From a virus, in IMG/VR virus record IMGVR_UViG_3300010413_000018, positions 1-64,000 of that record: a stretch of DNA of 64,000 nt; one strand, given 5' to 3'. The translations under genes were made by a program, and so were the position numbers. The notes beneath the pieces were generated by a model that worked only from the letters and a program-made list of their open reading frames with translations, was not told where the DNA came from and made no database searches. Positions 1-60,054 of this stretch are shown one piece after another. Position 1 is the stretch's first letter, and every line of letters starts with the position of its first letter.

Positions 1-707
1 GTCAAATCTTCGTCGACCGGACTGCTCTCACACGGAATATCAATGATACCGCCCTTGCGCCGTACCCGAGCGATCGCCTTTTGAGCTTTAGCGACTTCGT
101 CGGCTGCTTCGGTCAGCGTGATGTCGTGCTGTACGCCAATGTACTTTTCGGGTTCACCGGCTAACGACCGTTCCATCGTTTGTGCTAACTTTGCTGCTTC
201 TACCGCCTGACGCGTAGTCGTCGCAATCTCCCGAAACAACCGCGTCGCCTCCCGTGGGTTCTTCGGTTCGTGAATAGCCAACTCTTCTTCGACCCGTCCG
301 GCTAGCTTTACCGCGCCCTTTAATATTTGTTGGACCGACGCCATCAACGCGATCGCGGTGTGCCGCGCGCCGCGTACCATTTTCACTTCTTCCATCCGTT
401 GTTGTATTGCGTCGTCCTCCGCCCGTACTCGCGTCATCTGATCTCGGCCGGCCTGTTGCTTTGCGAGGTTCTGTATTTCCGCTTCGCGGAGCGTAGCCAG
501 CCGTGCACGTGCGGCTTGCTGCTCCTCGAATATCACGTCTTTTAACGGCCGAAACCCACGGTCCGGCCACCCGCGCTCCCAAGCCTTCTTCGTCGTGACC
601 CGGTTGATCCCGGAGCGCGCGGCACACCTTGTGAAATTTCCAGGCGTGTCCCGGAAGCCTTCAAGCATCGCATTGTACTTTTTTTCATCGATCTGATATC
701 CGCCCAT
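1..707 (-). CDS. Partial HTH/coiled-coil protein, small-terminase-like
   Basis: An open frame of 235 codons runs off the left edge with no stop, so the C-terminus is missing. The ATG at 707 follows AAGGTC, a weak ribosome-binding site. Residues about 8-50 look like a DNA-binding helix-turn-helix (NFTRCAARSGINRVTTKKAW), followed by a long, highly charged, Ala/Glu/Arg-rich helical stretch. An N-terminal HTH plus a coiled-coil body is the usual plan of phage small terminase subunits, which recognise packaging sites. That identity is an inference from architecture, and another DNA-binding phage protein is possible. It is transcribed leftwards, away from the satellite zone that starts just upstream. 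Confidence 0.6.
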   Translation of the reverse strand, partial: MGGYQIDEKKYNAMLEGFRDTPGNFTRCAARSGINRVTTKKAWERGWPDRGFRPLKDVIFEEQQAARARLATLREAEIQNLAKQQAGRDQMTRVRAEDDAIQQRMEEVKMVRGARHTAIALMASVQQILKGAVKLAGRVEEELAIHEPKNPREATRLFREIATTTRQAVEAAKLAQTMERSLAGEPEKYIGVQHDITLTEAADEVAKAQKAIARVRRKGGIIDIPCESSPVDEDL

Positions 708-819
708 GACCTTAAAGTTAGCGCTATCGGTGCCACCACGTCAAATTAAAAGCTTAAGTAATCACTCAGCGATCTAATTGTTCATTATTGCTACCTCACG
801 CACCGTTTACGGTTTGATT
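708..819. other. Non-coding leader between terminase-like gene and satellite
   Basis: No supported gene is present. The stretch is AT-rich near 740-800 and presumably holds the promoter for the gene starting at 707, but no convincing -35/-10 pair stands out. The ordered repeat begins at 820. Confidence 0.5.
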
Positions 820-999
820 AGTGCGCAATGAACGTTATGAACGTTGGGTGAACGTAATGAAAGCGCAATGAACGTAATGAAAGCGCAATGAACGTAATGA
901 AAGCTCAATGAGCGCTACCAACGGCTGGTGAACGGTATGAACGTTGGGTGAGCGTTACCATTGGACAATGAACGTAATGAACGTTGGGTGAGCGCTATG
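820..999. repeat. 9/11-bp alternating satellite, array 1a
   Basis: Exactly 180 bp that parses without remainder into nine 20-bp units, each an 11-bp module plus a 9-bp module. Modules start AACG-like and end in TG or CC. The 11-mers include AACGTTGGGTG, AAAGCGCAATG (twice), AACGGCTGGTG and ATTGGACAATG; the 9-mers include AACGTAATG, AACGTTATG and AGCGCTACC. The internal letters vary, yet module length alternates strictly. No plausible reading frame uses it; the frame crossing 961-1233 is a by-product of the repeat. Confidence 0.9.
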
Positions 1000-1035
1000 A
1001 TAATGGGGAACGCTCATAACCATGGTTACTGTGGT

Positions 1036-1086
1036 AATTACTTAAGCAAGGGCGGTTTTTCGCGGTTTTTTCTTACCCGTCAGGAA
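1036..1086. repeat. 51-bp block, copy A
   Basis: Matches 1408-1458 at 49 of 51 positions. The core reads GGGCGGTTTTTCGCGGTTTT then TTCTTACCCGTCAGGAA. A GC-rich segment followed by two T-runs gives it a terminator-like look on the plus strand, though copy A lacks a perfect stem. A shorter, decayed relative lies at about 3853-3882. Both full copies sit between a 9/11 array and a hairpin element, so the block is one part of a larger composite unit. Confidence 0.85.
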
Positions 1087-1166
1087 CATCACCAACAGTA
1101 CCATCATCACCAACAGTGTAGGCGCGCCGCGTCTATTGCCGGGAATGGTTATTGGGGTTTTGAATC

Positions 1167-1190
1167 ACAGGATTACTGCTCACGCTGTAA
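1167..1190. repeat. Hairpin element (ACAG..TTACTGCT..CTGT), copy a
   Basis: Reads ACAG-GATTACTGCTCACG-CTGT-AA, so the ends can pair around a conserved loop core ATTACTGCT. It lies two bases before the next 9/11 array. The minus strand reads GTGAGCAGTAATCCTG, the same string that forms the start of the small gene at 4242. Confidence 0.75.
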
Positions 1191-1192
1191 TG

Positions 1193-1341
1193 AGCACTCC
1201 CAACGGTGCCCCAACGTTACCATTGGACAATGAACGTTATGAACGGTGCCCCAACGTTACCATTGGACAATGAACAATACCAACGTTGGGTGAACGGCAT
1301 GAACGGGGCATGAACGTTACCAACGGCTGATGAACGTCAGG
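1193..1341. repeat. 9/11-bp alternating satellite, array 1b
   Basis: A leading 9-mer (AGCACTCCC) is followed by seven exact 20-bp units (1202-1341). Modules shared with array 1a include ATTGGACAATG, AACGTTATG and AACGTTGGGTG. AACGGTGCCCC and AACGTTACC each occur more than once here. Length alternation is unbroken. It then decays into ATAATGGTGAGCG, much as array 1a ends in ATAATGGGG. Confidence 0.9.
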
Positions 1342-1407
1342 ATAATGGTGAGCGTTGGTAACTATGGTTATTGGTTCATATGGTTCACTACTGCATGCAC
1401 TATATTG

Positions 1408-1458
1408 AATTACTTAGGTAAGGGCGGTTTTTCGCGGTTTTTTCTTACCCGTCAGGAA
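1408..1458. repeat. 51-bp block, copy B
   Basis: Second copy of the block at 1036-1086, with two differences. Here GGTAAG (near 1417) and CTTACC (near 1444) form a 6-bp inverted repeat around the T-rich core, making a terminator-like hairpin plausible. It is followed by a GC-rich stretch containing GGGGCGCCGTG and GCCGGGGAAAGG, which resembles the stretch after copy A. Confidence 0.85.
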
Positions 1459-1546
1459 ATATTCCCTACGGTAGGTTAACCATACGGGGTGGGGCGCCGT
1501 GCTCACGTTTTATCATGCCGGGGAAAGGTTGGCGCGCTGGGGAATA

Positions 1547-1568
1547 ACAGATTTACTGCTAACTCTGT
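1547..1568. repeat. Hairpin element, copy b
   Basis: ACAG-ATTTACTGCTAACT-CTGT followed by AAAT. The loop matches the copy at 3391-3420 exactly. It marks the switch from the 9/11-type zone to the CTNNR satellite, which starts 10 bp later. Confidence 0.8.
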
Positions 1569-1578
1569 AAATAATAAG

Positions 1579-2183
1579 CTAAGCTAAGCTGAGCTGAGCT
1601 ACGCTCTACTTCACTACACTAGACTATGCCTGCTCCGCTCTGCTCTGCTCTGCTCAGCTAGGCTAAGCTCAGCTAGGCTAAGCTCAGCTCATCTTCACTC
1701 CGCCTGCTCGGCTCTACTGCGCTATACTACGCTACACTTTGCTGAACTCCGCCTGCTCGGCTCTACTGCGCTCAGCTTCGCTCCACTTAGCTATACTATG
1801 CCTGCTTCACTTTGCTTTACTGGGCTTTGCCTGCACTCTGCTCCACTTTGCCTGCTCTACTTAGCTAAACTATGCTAGGCTACGCTCAACTTTGCTAGAC
1901 TTCGCCTGCTCTACTTAGCTGCACTCGGCTCCACTTAGCTTAACTTAGCCTGCTCTGCTGCACTATGCTTTGCTTCACTAAACTTAGCTCCACTTCGCCT
2001 GCTCTGCTTTACTTGGCTCCGCTCAGCTCCACTGTGCTTTGCTCCACTATGCTTTACTTCACTATGCCTGCTCTGCTTTACTATGCTACACTCGGCTTTG
2101 CTGCACTCTACTACGCTACGCCTGCTCTACTTCGCTCGGCTGCACTATGCTCCACTTTGCTATACTGAGCCTGCTCTGCTTTG
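1579..2183. repeat. CTNNR pentamer satellite with CCTG punctuation
   Basis: All 605 bp parse into 112 pentamers of form CTNNR plus eleven CCTG tetramers and one extra C (560+44+1). Only one pentamer, CTCAT, breaks the R rule. Between CCTG marks there are 10, 14, 9, 9, 9, 10, 8, 9, 13, 10 and 9 pentamers, then a final 2. Positions 3-4 vary freely, so this is not a simple microsatellite. It ends at 2183, directly against the stop codon of the next gene (TTA at 2184-2186). Frames inside it have the biased composition of the repeat and are not called as genes. Confidence 0.95.
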
Positions 2184-2816
2184 TTAGTCGCCCAGTTTGA
2201 AATGCCCCATCCCAATACCGCAGGATGTCTTCGAATCCGCTCGTCCCGCGCCAATACCGACCTGCATGCCTACTCGGCTCAATAGGTTGGCAATATCCTG
2301 TTGAGAGAATTGATCGGCGTCAAAACGGACCGTTATGCTCGCTTCCCAACCTTCCGGTAGCAGTCCGCGCGCTAGCACATTGGGCGATCCATCGGCGTTA
2401 CGCGTCATTGACACGTTTTTTTGAAATTCGCCTTTAGTAATGCGGATCAACGGCGTGTGCTCCTCGTTGTCGTAGCCGTCAGCCTCGGTAAAAATAGACA
2501 GCTTGGCGAGGGTCATCTTGAAACCACAAAGTTTACAAGCGCTGACCATTGCGTTACGAAACATATTGGCCGGTAAACCAGCCCAACCATCTGTTGACCA
2601 ATGCACTGAACGCGGCCAGGTCGCGTCGAAGTCAGTGCCTTCCCTACTACGGCGTACATTACGCTTTGAACCCTCAGCGTACGCCGCAATAAATCCGTCG
2701 CGGTTCTGGAACTTATTGGATAAGTACGGGCTGGTGCCAATTAGGGTAAACTTGGCGTATTGAAAGTTGGGCGCAGTGATCTGCACCGTTGCAGTTTTTT
2801 TAGTTTTTGCTACCAT
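2184..2816 (-). CDS. Conserved phage-type protein with glycine-rich C-terminal loop
   Basis: 210 aa, function not recognised. It is a compact, probably soluble protein. Residues about 70-100 contain HWSTDGWAGLPANMFRNAMVS, and the last 30 residues contain VGIGAGRADSK then GIGMGHFKL. A Gly-rich loop after alternating strands recalls RAMP/Cas7-like ferredoxin folds, but no other Cas gene is present, so this is only a fold-level suggestion. Its start overlaps the end of the upstream gene by 17 nt, pointing to a two-gene operon with 2800-3336. Its stop codon touches the CTNNR satellite, so that repeat would form the transcript's 3' end. Confidence 0.8.
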   Translation of the reverse strand: MVAKTKKTATVQITAPNFQYAKFTLIGTSPYLSNKFQNRDGFIAAYAEGSKRNVRRSREGTDFDATWPRSVHWSTDGWAGLPANMFRNAMVSACKLCGFKMTLAKLSIFTEADGYDNEEHTPLIRITKGEFQKNVSMTRNADGSPNVLARGLLPEGWEASITVRFDADQFSQQDIANLLSRVGMQVGIGAGRADSKTSCGIGMGHFKLGD

Positions 2817-3336
2817 TGGTGGTTCCTTTGCTGGTGTTTACTAAACTCGGCGCTAAGTTCTTTATCGCCGACCAAACTTTATTGATGCTCGGATCGTTAA
2901 TGTATTGATATTTATCCGCGATCGCTTGCAGTTGTTGCTTGGCCTTTAAATAAATGCCGTGCTTTTCTTCTTCGGTTAGCATCGTCCAAGGTTTGTAATC
3001 TCCGCATTTGCTAAACGGCTTTTGAGCGTTACTCGGCACTCCGTGGAGCACGCCAACCGAAATGACTTTCTTTTTTGGAGTGATCACTGTCACTTTGACG
3101 GATTGAATCAAATAACTAGCGCGCTTAAGTCGATATTTATGCGCGGCTGCTTCATCATCCCATTCAAATTCGTCGTGTAGTGCGTGATTCGGGTCTTCCG
3201 CTTCCTGTAGCACTAACGCTGGGGTTAGCTTGCTGTGCTTTTTTCTGATCGCAGCAAAAGCACGTCCAACGTTGTTGGCGTCAGTGCGTAAAACGTATCC
3301 ATCGCGTTTTTCATAAACTATTTTGCTTGCAGCCAT
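2800..3336 (-). CDS. Conserved phage hypothetical protein
   Basis: 178 aa from the ATG at 3336, chosen because AAGGAAGGAAAATACC precedes it; an upstream in-frame ATG at 3366 has no such site. The central segment ALHDEFEWDDEAAAHKYRL followed by a hydrophobic strand matches a pattern I recall from many phage and prophage proteins of unknown role. No enzyme motif is visible. The C-terminal 50 residues are Ser/Thr/Asn-rich. It is first gene of a two-gene unit isolated between the two satellite zones, which suggests the unit and the repeats may be functionally linked. Confidence 0.8.
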   Translation of the reverse strand: MAASKIVYEKRDGYVLRTDANNVGRAFAAIRKKHSKLTPALVLQEAEDPNHALHDEFEWDDEAAAHKYRLKRASYLIQSVKVTVITPKKKVISVGVLHGVPSNAQKPFSKCGDYKPWTMLTEEEKHGIYLKAKQQLQAIADKYQYINDPSINKVWSAIKNLAPSLVNTSKGTTNGSKN

Positions 3337-3390
3337 GGTATTTTCCTTCCTTTTAAGTGAATGCACTAATTAATTATTTTTGACACATTT

Positions 3391-3420
3391 ATTTACAGAT
3401 TTACTGCTAACTCTGTAAAT
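3391..3420. repeat. Hairpin element, copy c (perfect 8-bp stem)
   Basis: ATTTACAG (3391-3398) pairs perfectly with CTGTAAAT (3413-3420) around the 14-nt loop ATTTACTGCTAACT. It is the best-formed copy and lies one base before a 9/11 array. Confidence 0.85.
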
Positions 3421-3421
3421 G

Positions 3422-3600
3422 AGCGTATTACCCACGTCACCAACGTAATGAACGCGTTATGAACGCTACCAACGCGTTATGAACGTTACCAACGGTGGGT
3501 GAACGTTACCAACGCGTGATGAACGTAATGAACGTTGGGTGAACGCTACCAACGGTGGGTGAACGCTACCAACGGTGGGTGAACGTAATGATAGCTGGTG
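3422..3600. repeat. 9/11-bp alternating satellite, array 2a
   Basis: From 3451 on, 11-mers and 9-mers alternate (AACGCGTTATG, AACGCTACC, AACGGTGGGTG, AACGTTACC and others). The most regular stretch repeats the 20-mer AACGCTACCAACGGTGGGTG. One irregularity, two consecutive 9-mers, occurs at 3433-3450. The array ends at ATAGCTGGTG, just before another hairpin element. Confidence 0.9.
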
Positions 3601-3604
3601 AACG

Positions 3605-3630
3605 ACAGATTTACTGCTAACTTCGTAAAT
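3605..3630. repeat. Hairpin element, copy d (decayed right arm)
   Basis: ACAGATTTACTGCTAACTT followed by CGTAAAT. The loop is identical to copies b and c, but the right arm has lost the CTGT match, so it should not fold as well. It sits in the same position at the edge of an array. Confidence 0.7.
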
Positions 3631-3728
3631 AAAAAGTATCAAAAATAGTAAAAGCGCGATGAATTAATGAACAATCGGATAAAAGCACCAGCATTTAAAA
3701 ATAAGTGACTCCGCTTTTAGCCGTTACC
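3631..3728. other. AT-rich non-coding gap
   Basis: No gene, stem or promoter could be supported here. It separates array 2a from array 2b and contains short A-rich runs. Confidence 0.5.
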
Positions 3729-3848
3729 AACGTGACCATTGGACAATGAGCACTACCAACGGCGCCCCAACGTTACCAAAGCGCAATGAACGTTACCAAA
3801 GCGCAATGAACGTTACCATCGTGGTACCAACGGTATGATAATGCGGCG
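3729..3848. repeat. 9/11-bp alternating satellite, array 2b
   Basis: Exactly 120 bp, six 20-bp units. Modules include ATTGGACAATG, AAAGCGCAATG (twice) and AACGTTACC (three times), the same words used in arrays 1a and 1b more than 2 kb away. It ends with ATAATGCGGCG, matching the ATAATGG ends of arrays 1a and 1b. Confidence 0.9.
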
Positions 3849-3889
3849 AATGGCTGTTACGCGGCTTTTTCTCTGCCGGGAAGATTACC

Positions 3890-3929
3890 AACACTCCCCC
3901 AACGTAATGAACGGCGCCCCAACGTTACC
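3890..3929. repeat. 9/11-bp alternating satellite, array 2c
   Basis: Two units (AACACTCCCCC, AACGTAATG, AACGGCGCCCC, AACGTTACC) after a short GC/T-rich block (3853-3882) that looks like a decayed form of the 51-bp block. Confidence 0.85.
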
Positions 3930-3932
3930 ATT

Positions 3933-3956
3933 TACAGGATTACTGCTCACGCTGTA
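3933..3956. repeat. Hairpin element, copy e
   Basis: TACAG-GATTACTGCTCACG-CTGTA gives a 5-bp stem with the same loop as copy a. It closes the second repeat zone about 35 bp before the stop codon of the first ZR gene. Confidence 0.75.
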
Positions 3957-3990
3957 GTGCTATCCTAACGGGTTGGTTACGGCGCGAGCG

Positions 3991-4242
3991 TTACCCTTCG
4001 CCTTCTTCTTCGTACATGTCATTGGCGTCAGCTAAACGTTGTTCGTCTGTTTTTACGCTTAGACCGAATTGTTTTCTTAATTTAGTCGGTATTGTAACCA
4101 GTTTAGCCGGATTGTTTGTGTGCACCAACCTGTATGCAATTCCAAGTTCCTCCGGTATCGGTTCGCCGTAGCAAAGGCGGCAGAACTTTTCTCTGCGACC
4201 GCTACAGCGCGGGCAAACTACTTTTTCAGTATTACTGCTCAC
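3991..4242 (-). CDS. ZR-family small two-CxxC protein (ZR1), GTG start
   Basis: 83 aa, and defines the family used below. A CPRC knuckle (10-13) and a CRLC knuckle (21-24) followed by YG are likely to hold one zinc ion, like half of a DnaJ cysteine-rich domain. Then come Pro, LxxAY and a hydrophobic helix, and a second amphipathic helix with LR (about 55). The tail is acidic (EEEGEG). Start is GTG at 4242 inside a GTGAGCAGTAATACTG string that is also the intergenic hairpin element. It overlaps ZR2 by 11 nt and is last of a long co-directional chain. Biochemical role unknown. Confidence 0.85.
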   Translation of the reverse strand: MSSNTEKVVCPRCSGRREKFCRLCYGEPIPEELGIAYRLVHTNNPAKLVTIPTKLRKQFGLSVKTDEQRLADANDMYEEEGEG

Positions 4243-4474
4243 GCTGTAAGATCTTTCTTAATTTCAATACGTGCTGAATACGCACGTACCCATCGGTCAT
4301 CATTAGTATGTAAGCCGCAGCGATCTCTTCAATGACTTGGCCGGTATTATCACACAACGCGCAAATGTCAGCGTTATAGGTCGTGTCAGCGCCAACACAA
4401 TGGAACCCTCTATTTTGCTCGCGCACCGGAGTGCAACGCGGGCAGGGAGTCAGTTTGGCGTCGTCTTGGCTCAT
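4232..4474 (-). CDS. ZR-family protein (ZR2)
   Basis: 80 aa. Knuckles are CPRC (11-14) and CALC (38-41) with a 23-residue linker that holds a spare Cys and His (25-26). AAAYILMM follows. The ATG at 4474 overlaps the upstream stop as ATGA, which decides the start over an in-frame ATG 15 nt further up. The C-terminal helix ends in KLRKILQREQ. The longer, polar linker is the part that differs most from its neighbours. Confidence 0.85.
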   Translation of the reverse strand: MSQDDAKLTPCPRCTPVREQNRGFHCVGADTTYNADICALCDNTGQVIEEIAAAYILMMTDGYVRIQHVLKLRKILQREQ

Positions 4475-4695
4475 TTCGCATGCCCCCAACGTTCCTCGTA
4501 AACATTTGGTAAGTCAAAAGCGCGCCGCAGCTCATCACACTGTTCTGAACTCGGCACTTTGCATTCTTCGAAGCCTTCACGCAACAATAAATAAGCAGTG
4601 CGCAGATCAGCAGGGATCTCGCGATCGTAGCACAAACGACACGCGTACATATATCCACCACAGCGCGGGCATTGTACTGCTTTCCTGGTCTTCAT
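4471..4695 (-). CDS. ZR-family protein (ZR3)
   Basis: 74 aa with a minimal linker: CPRC (9-12), CRLC (19-22). TAYLLL and the helix QCDELRRAFDLP follow, the latter very close to EQLRRNFDLP of ZR8. The start ATGAAG overlaps the stop of ZR4 by 4 nt. With ZR4 it forms a pair that looks duplicated at ZR9/ZR10. Confidence 0.85.
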   Translation of the reverse strand: MKTRKAVQCPRCGGYMYACRLCYDREIPADLRTAYLLLREGFEECKVPSSEQCDELRRAFDLPNVYEERWGHAK

Positions 4696-4904
4696 GGCGC
4701 TATCCCTGCTTTGTCTAGCTTTTCAATAATGCGATCGTACTCTGCCCACATAAAAGGCCCGTCATCGTCAGGTAGCAGAAGCTCGTACGCGGCCAAACGC
4801 TCTTTTGATACCCACCCTTTACCTTTACACATACCACAACCGCACCAACCGGCTCGCTCGCACTGAGGACAGCGCACTTTTCCTTTTCTTGGGTTACTGC
4901 TCAT
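4692..4904 (-). CDS. ZR-family protein (ZR4)
   Basis: 70 aa. CPQC (12-15) and CGMC (23-26) with an additional Cys at 21. AAYELLL follows. It begins MSSN, the same N-terminus as ZR1, and ends IIEKLDKAGIAP, nearly the same end as ZR10. It overlaps ZR5 by 11 nt and ZR3 by 4 nt. Confidence 0.85.
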   Translation of the reverse strand: MSSNPRKGKVRCPQCERAGWCGCGMCKGKGWVSKERLAAYELLLPDDDGPFMWAEYDRIIEKLDKAGIAP

Positions 4905-5187
4905 TTTGTAACTCCGCGAGTAACTGTAAAACCGTGCTCTCTAATGGACGCCAAACATACTTACCTAAATCAGGTATGATCAAACGGACCGCAACCGCAT
5001 AATGAGTCGGCACTACACCGCAGCCAGTGCAAAACACACATACAATATCGTGGTCATCATGAAGTATCTGTTTCTTTGTGTTCACCCAGAGACGAGGTTC
5101 CTTGCTTGACGGTAGGCTTTTACCGCGCGTTAGTTTTCCGTACCCGTAACAAATGGGGCACATTTCTCTTTTAGTGTTAATGCTCAT
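4894..5187 (-). CDS. ZR-family protein (ZR5), long linker
   Basis: 97 aa. CPIC followed by YGYG (10-17) is DnaJ-like; the second knuckle CVFC (50-53) lies 36 residues on, with an extra Cys at 56. The linker is basic and contains HDDHD. The AY motif has become YAVAV, so this is one of the more divergent members. Starts MSIN, and overlaps ZR6 by 4 nt. Confidence 0.8.
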   Translation of the reverse strand: MSINTKREMCPICYGYGKLTRGKSLPSSKEPRLWVNTKKQILHDDHDIVCVFCTGCGVVPTHYAVAVRLIIPDLGKYVWRPLESTVLQLLAELQNEQ

Positions 5188-58025: not shown

Positions 58026-58543
58026 TTTTTCTTGAAATATGATAGTTTTAGCATCTCTTGGATGTCAGATAAACGCAGTGCCCCTAGTATGTGTTCGCGT
58101 GCAGTTGGGTTTTTCCAGACAAAAATTAATAATTCATCGCAGAACTTAGTGGATAGTTTAGGCGGTTCACCATCAATTAATGCAAATGCAGGGTCTCTGT
58201 TAGTCACTTCGTTTAATGCTTGAATTAATGTGGCTGCCCATTCTGGAACAAAAAAGCTTGTGCAATACGGCTTTCTTGGTTGTGCATGATATAGGCCATC
58301 CCAGCCATTAACTACACATGACCATGATTGTATCAAACCGCTACGCGGTATTTTAAGCTTACGGATCGGAAACCCTTCTTCTTCGAGTAACAACGCTCCC
58401 CACCTACTACCTATTGGCGCCCATCCTAAGCGTTCCATTTCTTGTTGATTTTGACGAGCTGTACATGAGACGCTTCTTTGATGCTCGTCCAACGGGAAAG
58501 CATTAGATAATACCTTCCCGCATTTTGGACAAACGTGAGACAT
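58022..58543 (-). CDS. Zinc-finger phage protein, paralogue of 53888
   Basis: 173 aa from ATG 58543 (overlaps the VWA stop as TAATG). CPKCGKVLSNAFPLDEHQRS is the finger; GWAPIGSRWGALLLEEEGF matches GWCILDGSWKRLIREGNV of 53888. Downstream regions share WxxxWAATL. The pair probably arose by duplication within the phage lineage. Confidence 0.8.
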   Translation of the reverse strand: MSHVCPKCGKVLSNAFPLDEHQRSVSCTARQNQQEMERLGWAPIGSRWGALLLEEEGFPIRKLKIPRSGLIQSWSCVVNGWDGLYHAQPRKPYCTSFFVPEWAATLIQALNEVTNRDPAFALIDGEPPKLSTKFCDELLIFVWKNPTAREHILGALRLSDIQEMLKLSYFKKK

Positions 58544-60054
58544 TATGCGGCTTTCGGCTGGATTTTTACTTCGCCGTCCTCGTCGATCTCGATCATGGTG
58601 CCCCAATCTATTTGGCCGTTCCAGTCACCATTTTTGGCCGGCCAAGGGATACGGCGCCCACTACCCACCAATACCCAAATCACATGAATGTCTGGAGGTG
58701 GGTTTTCGGGAGCTGGTCCACAACCGTCGGTGATAAAAACCAGAACTTGTGGCTTTTCGTGTTTGGGTAAGCGCTCGATCGCCTCAAAGCCAGGGCAGAA
58801 ATCAGTTCCGCCACCACCTTTGAGTAGCTCGGTAAGTTCACGCACATGCTGTACTTTTTTGAAACTTTGGACCTCGGCGTCTAACGCCGCGAAAGTAACT
58901 TCGGCGCTCGCAGCCTGCAGCACTCCGTTGCTCTCTTCAACTGCCAGTTTCAGCTCTTCTTTTCCCATTGACCCACTTGTGTCAACTAGGATGGCTACGC
59001 GCGGCACGGGAGTAAAATAGCTCGGCATTATGGCGCATCCGCGTCCATATCCTAATCCACCTTGGCGGCGACTTGGCTTATGGTAGGCCAGGTCAACGGC
59101 TCCGGCTTTACGGGCAATGTACATGCGGCACGCGCGGCGTAGCTTAGTGCGCCAGTCAACCTTGGGCGGTGATAGTTCGGTTTCAGCCCAACGCATCCAA
59201 TCTCCAGGTACGTTTCCTCGCCCTTTTTGCGCTTCTTGGTTGATCGCTTCAGCGGTTTGCTTCCGGATCATTGTGGTTTCAACCGGTGAACGACCGCCAC
59301 CAGCTTCTTTACGCGCTTTGTCTTCCTGAGCCGCTGGAAGGCCTCCGGATGCGGATCCACACCAGCCGGCTCCTACTTGCGGCGCGCTTGGAGTTTTACC
59401 GTTACCTTGGCCTTTTCCTTTTCCTTTTCCTTTATTTTTTCCTTGGCCTTTGCCTTGACCCTGTCCTTGGCTTTCTTGTTCTCCTTCGCTGTCTCCATCG
59501 CCTTGGCCTTGGCCTTGGCCTTGGCCTTGGCCTTGGCCTTGCTCTGCCATTTTTTGAAGCGCTTCGCGTATTTGCTGTTCCATCGCGTCGCGTTGAGGAT
59601 CCCATTCTTTCCGCAGTAGTTGATAGTATTCTTCAGCGGTTAAACCGTCGTCAAACTTGAAGTTTTTCGGAAGCGCTATGCCTTCCGGTAACGACCAACA
59701 CGCTTCGACTAAATCGTCATTGATCTCGCAATCAGCGGCTACATTCCACACTGCTTTTTCGTAAACGTCTTCATTGGGATGTGGTTTGATGCCCATCGCT
59801 TGAGATCGTTCAAAGTGCGCGCGTAAAATGTGCGATACTTCGTGCACTAAGCATCCCGCTATTTCTGCTACTGAATGCTCAACAACAAAGTCCGGATCCA
59901 CTACCATGATTCCGTCATGTGATACACCCATGGTACCGTAGCCTTTTGCTTCTATCGGGATTAACGAAAAAAGAGCGACGCGAAACCACGCCCACTTTTT
60001 GATCGCCATCAACCGCGCTGCCGCTAGTTTTTCATTCCAAGTTAGGTCTTCCAC
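58543..60054 (-). CDS. HExxH peptidase-like / VWA fusion
   Basis: 503 aa. N-terminal half contains CLVHEVSHILRAHFERSQ, an HExxH zinc-peptidase signature (DUF2201 type). A long Gln/Gly repeat (residues about 160-205, GQGQGQ...) then Lys/Gly-rich linker follows. The C-terminal half has LVDTSGSMG (VWA metal-ion site DxSxS) and GGGGTDFCPGF. This is the VWA partner of the MoxR-like ATPase. Its job in phages is unknown; protein remodelling or host-enzyme inactivation are options. Confidence 0.85.
   Translation of the reverse strand: MEDLTWNEKLAAARLMAIKKWAWFRVALFSLIPIEAKGYGTMGVSHDGIMVVDPDFVVEHSVAEIAGCLVHEVSHILRAHFERSQAMGIKPHPNEDVYEKAVWNVAADCEINDDLVEACWSLPEGIALPKNFKFDDGLTAEEYYQLLRKEWDPQRDAMEQQIREALQKMAEQGQGQGQGQGQGQGDGDSEGEQESQGQGQGKGQGKNKGKGKGKGQGNGKTPSAPQVGAGWCGSASGGLPAAQEDKARKEAGGGRSPVETTMIRKQTAEAINQEAQKGRGNVPGDWMRWAETELSPPKVDWRTKLRRACRMYIARKAGAVDLAYHKPSRRQGGLGYGRGCAIMPSYFTPVPRVAILVDTSGSMGKEELKLAVEESNGVLQAASAEVTFAALDAEVQSFKKVQHVRELTELLKGGGGTDFCPGFEAIERLPKHEKPQVLVFITDGCGPAPENPPPDIHVIWVLVGSGRRIPWPAKNGDWNGQIDWGTMIEIDEDGEVKIQPKAA

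Follow-up and report, generated by a model that had tools for sequence, protein, structure and literature searches.

What is the role of a 605-bp array of CTNNR pentamers, two letters of which vary, that abuts the end of a gene in a virus genome? The array occupies positions 1579-2183 of the 64,000-nucleotide stretch analysed here (the window), which comprises positions 1 to 64,000 of the IMG/VR virus record IMGVR_UViG_3300010413_000018. Judging from its sequence and that of the neighbouring gene, the array very probably encodes the guide RNAs (vrRNAs) of a VIPR system. Membership of VIPR is well supported at the protein and the guide-RNA level; the transcription of the array, the processing of its junctions and the existence of targets for its guides are what we infer from it.

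VIPR systems were described in a preprint of April 2026, in which Vipr is a RAMP protein with an RRM core and a G-loop (PMC13142463). The vrRNAs alternate GGY and NN "or a related consensus" over 9-16 repeats, and seven VIPR types are distinguished (PMC13142463). Competing phages are repressed when the NN letters pair with double-stranded DNA in a pattern that leaves out one base each time; RNA binding, the 1-nt-skip code and repression are known for SUSP1 and close systems only (PMC13142463). Literature searches found no other VIPR paper.

Structure of the array

The array parses exactly into 111 CTNNR pentamers, one CTCAT, eleven CCTG tetramers and one extra C. A preliminary description had arrived at the same 112 pentamers and eleven CCTG in 605 bp, with CT..R kept in strict 5-nt phase around two variable letters and CCTG as a regular mark, and all of this agrees with our parse. 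Its count of one extra C also holds, and this C conceals a 12th CCTG (1830-1833, minus strand) inside a damaged unit. There are thus 12 marks, one of which precedes the damaged pentamer. The CTNNR chain score of the array is 112.1, whereas with first-order Markov shuffling the best score was 7.8 over 200 randomisations of the array and 4.0 over 10 of the whole window; chance is therefore excluded as the source of the array. No other site in the 140,728-base virus record has seven or more consecutive CTNNR pentamers.

Minus-strand reading gives a period of RGYNN, and the array in RNA sense, (AGYNN)n, consists of units of the form GGYNN(AGYNN)n AGCA. The mark then becomes AGC-A-GGC, in which a GGC pentamer comes after a 4-nt unit; the CAGG that it contains appears as CCTG on the plus strand. 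The first letter is G, not A, in twelve of the 112 pentamers; eleven of these directly follow an AGCA unit and the twelfth is at the damaged site. The first (5') AGCA|GGC junction, a CCTG on the plus strand at 2170-2173, terminates a leader of two pentamers. Further minus-strand junctions were parsed at 2121-2124, 2067-2070, 1998-2001, 1949-1952, 1905-1908, 1851-1854, 1801-1804, 1752-1755, 1703-1706 and 1629-1632. The units contain 8-14 pentamers (mean 10), and the longest unbroken guide unit (2002-2066, minus strand) has 13, with 12 NN plus a constant one. In RNA sense the array starts directly after the TAA stop codon of the gene at 2184-2816 on the minus strand (vipr, see below), and the 3' UTR placement proposed in the preliminary description is correct.

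A coding repeat was considered and rejected due to the many stops: the frames of the array contain 3-25 stops each, and the longest open stretch is 96 codons. At Rfam gathering thresholds no family was identified in the window; the search of five sources yielded only two tRNAs, both in L010, and no hammerhead.

Other repeats are present in the window. Another degenerate array, whose 20-nt period is made up of 9- and 11-nt halves (AACGNNAYS AACGNNGGGTG), flanks the VIPR locus on both sides, at 827-1017, 1193-1344, 3420-3608, 3727-3840 and 3881-3932. A pattern for it had no further match in the 140,728-base record, and among the fetched loci it matched only copies of this region. A 26-nt element of the ACAGATTTACTGCTAACTCTGTAAAT type, which contains a short inverted repeat, occurs in six copies within 700-5000 (1167-1192, 1547-1572, 3395-3420, 3605-3630, 3934-3959 and 4226-4251), two of which bracket the VIPR locus; the copy at 1547-1572 (minus strand), with an ATTTAC/GTAAAT stem, is just beyond the 3' end of the vrRNA array. 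A 51-nt repeat is present at 1036-1086 and 1408-1458 (96% identical). Short-period repeats with CCTTTT and GCCTTG units (59395-59541) lie within a gene (58543-60054) that matches an HNH-endonuclease family.

The motif GCGATCGC, which corresponds to the HIP1 site of cyanobacteria, is present 10 times in the whole window, with 1.5 occurrences expected. This excess may point to a cyanobacterial host. Among phage Viprs, the closest comes from a record labelled as a cyanophage; the DNA polymerase has only distant matches.

The adjoining gene encodes a RAMP protein

The gene that precedes the array (2184-2816, minus strand) encodes a protein of 210 amino acids that we identified as a RAMP/Cas7-like Vipr of family phrog_4652 (E 2.6e-8) by profile match, structural model and tree. 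Its AlphaFold model (pLDDT 86) matches Csm3/Cas7 chains, with a best Foldseek E of 5.5e-6 and a Z of 11.8. A profile built from 28 Vipr relatives matches PDB entry 36pp, "SUSP1 Vipr protein", at E 3.9e-46, and this was the sole PDB match at E <= 0.1. The relative encoded in another viral locus, L045, matches the same entry at E 1.3e-38; the window sequence alone does not match it. A glycine-rich C-terminal loop is present in the Vipr alignment. The phrog_4652 match, the 36pp profile match, the Csm3/Cas7 fold and this loop together provide the RAMP homologue of a VIPR system. No Pfam, NCBIfam or PADLOC model scored above its own cut-off for Vipr. When the window Vipr was used as a single query for related loci no relative was found, presumably because the family is too diverged.

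VIPR loci carry a vipr-accessory (vap) gene beside vipr, of which vap1-6 have been named (PMC13142463). In the window, a gene at 2800-3366 (minus strand) overlaps the start of vipr, although its own start may be at 3336, and matches phrog_15946 (E 9e-18). Homologues of this type were identified in seven other vipr/array loci (L151, L006, L003, L035, L103, L070 and L076), where some matches are weak (E up to 0.0029). We therefore consider the phrog_15946-like gene a candidate vap. Its structural model is poor (pLDDT 62) and falls below use for fold search. The neighbouring gene of Cyanophage Cy-LDV1, g33, has an EWDD motif in common with it, by eye only.

Related arrays in other viruses

A pattern of nine CTNNR pentamers around one CCTG was matched in five other viral contigs and in no bacterial or archaeal genome contig. 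Full parses of four loci (L002, L003, L006 and L035) revealed long arrays with CCTG spacing similar to that of the window. The preliminary description would have taken a lack of conservation in related phages as evidence against its reading; arrays with the same mark are present in other viruses, with a related gene.

Within each of the five CCTG arrays, a near-constant NN stands immediately before AGCA but not immediately after it. Among 20000 shuffles, values as low were obtained 0 times for the window, once each for L002 and L006, 23 times for L003 and 26 times for L035. We read the constant NN plus AGCA as a probable guide end signal. In the tree, the five corresponding Viprs group as a single clade (UFB 100 / SH-aLRT 96), apart from SUSP2 and LESphi2.

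Less restrictive scanning of viral sequences for nine CTNNR in a row returned at least 119 stretches, so the census is a lower bound. Sorting by NN diversity separated plain tandem repeats from degenerate arrays, and the degenerate arrays among the listed matches have CCTG, have 50-60-bp linkers or are unmarked. Two long CTNNR arrays beside vipr have no separators (L033, 8678-9032, 70 pentamers; L093, 10136-10310, 35 pentamers), and may correspond to the "staggered" guides, which overlap, described in the preprint.

Degenerate CTNNR arrays are strongly linked to the vipr family. We identified phrog_4652 in 39 of 50 degenerate-array records, and in none of 50 with plain pentamer repeats (Fisher p 8e-18). 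The former were chosen from the scan table for degenerate NN and include the window's own record; the latter are low-diversity records from the same table, unmatched for length or virus type. Several of the 11 degenerate-array records that lack phrog_4652 are short contigs. Five loci of the same kind were left out of the degenerate set (L015, L079, L098, L100 and L109), and three of these (L079, L098 and L109) carry a Vipr by local profile.

The linkage also has a direction. For 39 of 42 distinct Vipr genes, at least five RGYNN occur in a row on the same strand as the gene and no more than 3 kb away. In one case (L103) the arrays are antisense to vipr only, and two family members lack any RGYNN run of five. 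Thus, the working strand is very probably the minus strand, with AGYNN as the RNA sense. Contrary to the earlier proposal, the array is probably not a DNA satellite but would act from the opposite strand, as RNA. A half helical turn as the cause of the 5-bp period is wrong or unsupported, and a role in packaging or replication is without support. The earlier statement that no phage satellite of this form had been described is outdated, as YNNGG vrRNAs are described in PMC13142463.

Guides and candidate targets

A target was identified for an AGY array outside the window. A guide of 14 pentamers in L045 (3842-3911), decoded with a 1-nt skip and with 11 NN (22 bases) fixed, has exact matches in seven viral contigs. 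All seven fall in one primase/helicase gene (by PHROG match) and are counted as one event. In each target 12 of the 14 NN match without a break, the mismatches being the tail-adjacent NN and the last NN, and the skipped base is the wobble base of the codon. Patterns from other guides, with 18-22 fixed bases, had 0, 0, 0 and 1 matches in the same viral collection, and chance is therefore an unlikely source of the L045 match. This match of a guide to a phage primase indicates that AGY arrays probably follow the same 1-nt-skip code. If so, decoding could reveal the phage-against-phage targets of guides in many unnamed phages.

No convincing target emerged for the three guides of the window that were searched. 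Block 9, the longest unit (2002-2066), had no match in viral contigs with 10 NN and none in genomes with 11 NN, and block 10 had none in viral contigs. The single match of block 1, in L164, was judged to be due to chance, as 9 of 10 NN agree and no long reading frame puts the skipped base at the wobble position. An L006 guide, which has the same junction type as those of the window, had no match in viral contigs. A set of 99 unique guides of 9-16 NN (from 140 runs found) was compared with 1.2 Mb at skips of 0-3, and there was no excess over reversed guides. When compared with Cy-LDV1 and with the window itself, the window guides did not outperform shuffled ones.

Proposed function and alternatives

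The vipr gene and the downstream array read in one direction; a transcript that continues past the vipr stop codon would be a chain of about 11 guides. Each guide would start with GGYNN, continue with AGYNN repeats and end with the near-constant NN plus AGCA. Vipr may coat this RNA with one subunit per pentamer, so that RGY is held and NN is exposed. The successive NN would then pair with a competing phage's double-stranded DNA, with one target base left out after each NN (NNxNNx...), and the paired guide would block transcription at the target. The 4-nt junction breaks the register and could mark the end of a guide and the site of processing.

A bolder reading is a variant of VIPR that has no tail. 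Tentatively, and with a little less than even confidence, we propose that Vipr reads AGY/NN RNA, that a 4-nt RGCA|GGC junction replaces the folded tail, that about 11 guides are carried per 3' UTR, and that the single N of the junction breaks the register and so serves as guide end and processing site. If this is true, the locus would be an extremely compact natural multiplex RNA-guided array, made up of a single protein of about 210 residues and separators of 4 nt.

The start of the array at the vipr stop codon is also expected if the array binds Vipr for the gene's own control, as an autoregulatory 3' UTR or RNA scaffold in which the NN drift and do not guide, and the window guides are without a convincing target, as this would predict. 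However, the NN before the junction is near-constant and the NN elsewhere are variable, and the AGY array of L045 naturally matches the primase of another phage under the published code. We consider autoregulation of this kind improbable.

It is harder still to credit that a ring protein such as TRAP binds the AGYNN RNA multivalently, the RNA acting as a decoy or 3' UTR regulator. TRAP recognises NAG triplets separated by 2 nt, with about 11 triplets in a block, and the window array is comparable in that it has about 10 pentamers per block and an AG every 5 nt. Yet TrpBP (PF02081) is present in none of 40 array-bearing virus records, the partner actually present is a RAMP protein, and the hypervariable NN and the decoded L045 target would be left unexplained. 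Least credible of all, to the point of being negligible, is a functionless product of low-complexity slippage or misassembly: TRF reports short-period repeats at the array, but identical neighbouring NN pairs (10, against 8.5 +- 2.8 in shuffles) are no more common than expected, which speaks against simple slippage, the same anatomy is common to independent contigs whose Viprs are diverged (39-51% identity), and the linkage to one gene family is strong.

Relationship to known systems

Among the closest known systems are those of the SUSP1 type. VIPR type II includes Escherichia phage SUSP1 and a P. fulva prophage, with the structure in PDB 36pp (PMC13142463). Like these, the window system is phage-borne, has a single small RAMP protein and a pentamer guide RNA with three fixed and two variable letters, and has flanking intergenic arrays and, in the phrog_15946-like neighbour of vipr, a candidate accessory gene. 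It differs in its AGY/NN repeat, which fits the "related consensus" of vrRNAs and not the strict GGY of SUSP1. Whereas SUSP1 has a repeat tract followed by an invariable folded tail, the window units are joined head to tail by 4-nt AGCA|GGC junctions only. Due to the absence of a structured tail between units, we do not file the window system as VIPR type II. The family of the neighbouring gene is also different (phrog_15946, versus phrog_5926 beside the SUSP2 gene).

The nearest named Viprs are those of Cyanophage Cy-LDV1 (45% identity) and Rhodoplanes serenus plasmid 1 (51%), both annotated as hypothetical proteins. Their arrays, which follow vipr or the next gene, also have 4-nt junctions (GGCA|GGC), but the consensus is GGY/NN, the arrays are shorter and the units are more broken. 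The junction is common to the window clade and to these two, and the first letter of the triplet differs. Relative to the main text of the preprint, the AGY triplet, the 4-nt junction with a constant neighbour and the decoded AGY target are new, and its supplement may cover part of this. A lineage that combines the AGY triplet with a 4-nt separator provides natural variants for testing which bases are recognised by Vipr, where guides are cut and by what route arrays acquire them.

Class 1 CRISPR proteins Cas7 and Csm3 share the RAMP fold with the window Vipr, but their guide code is continuous and that of VIPR is broken up (PMC13142463). In passing, neither a CRISPR array nor a further cas gene was seen close to the window locus. 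The authors of the preprint propose that Vipr is older than CRISPR and that VIPR is its forerunner (PMC13142463). TIGR-Tas is reported to have tandem guide arrays carried by phage as well, and differs in having been discovered via a guide-RNA domain of Cas9. Its effector is presumably not a RAMP protein, unlike Vipr.
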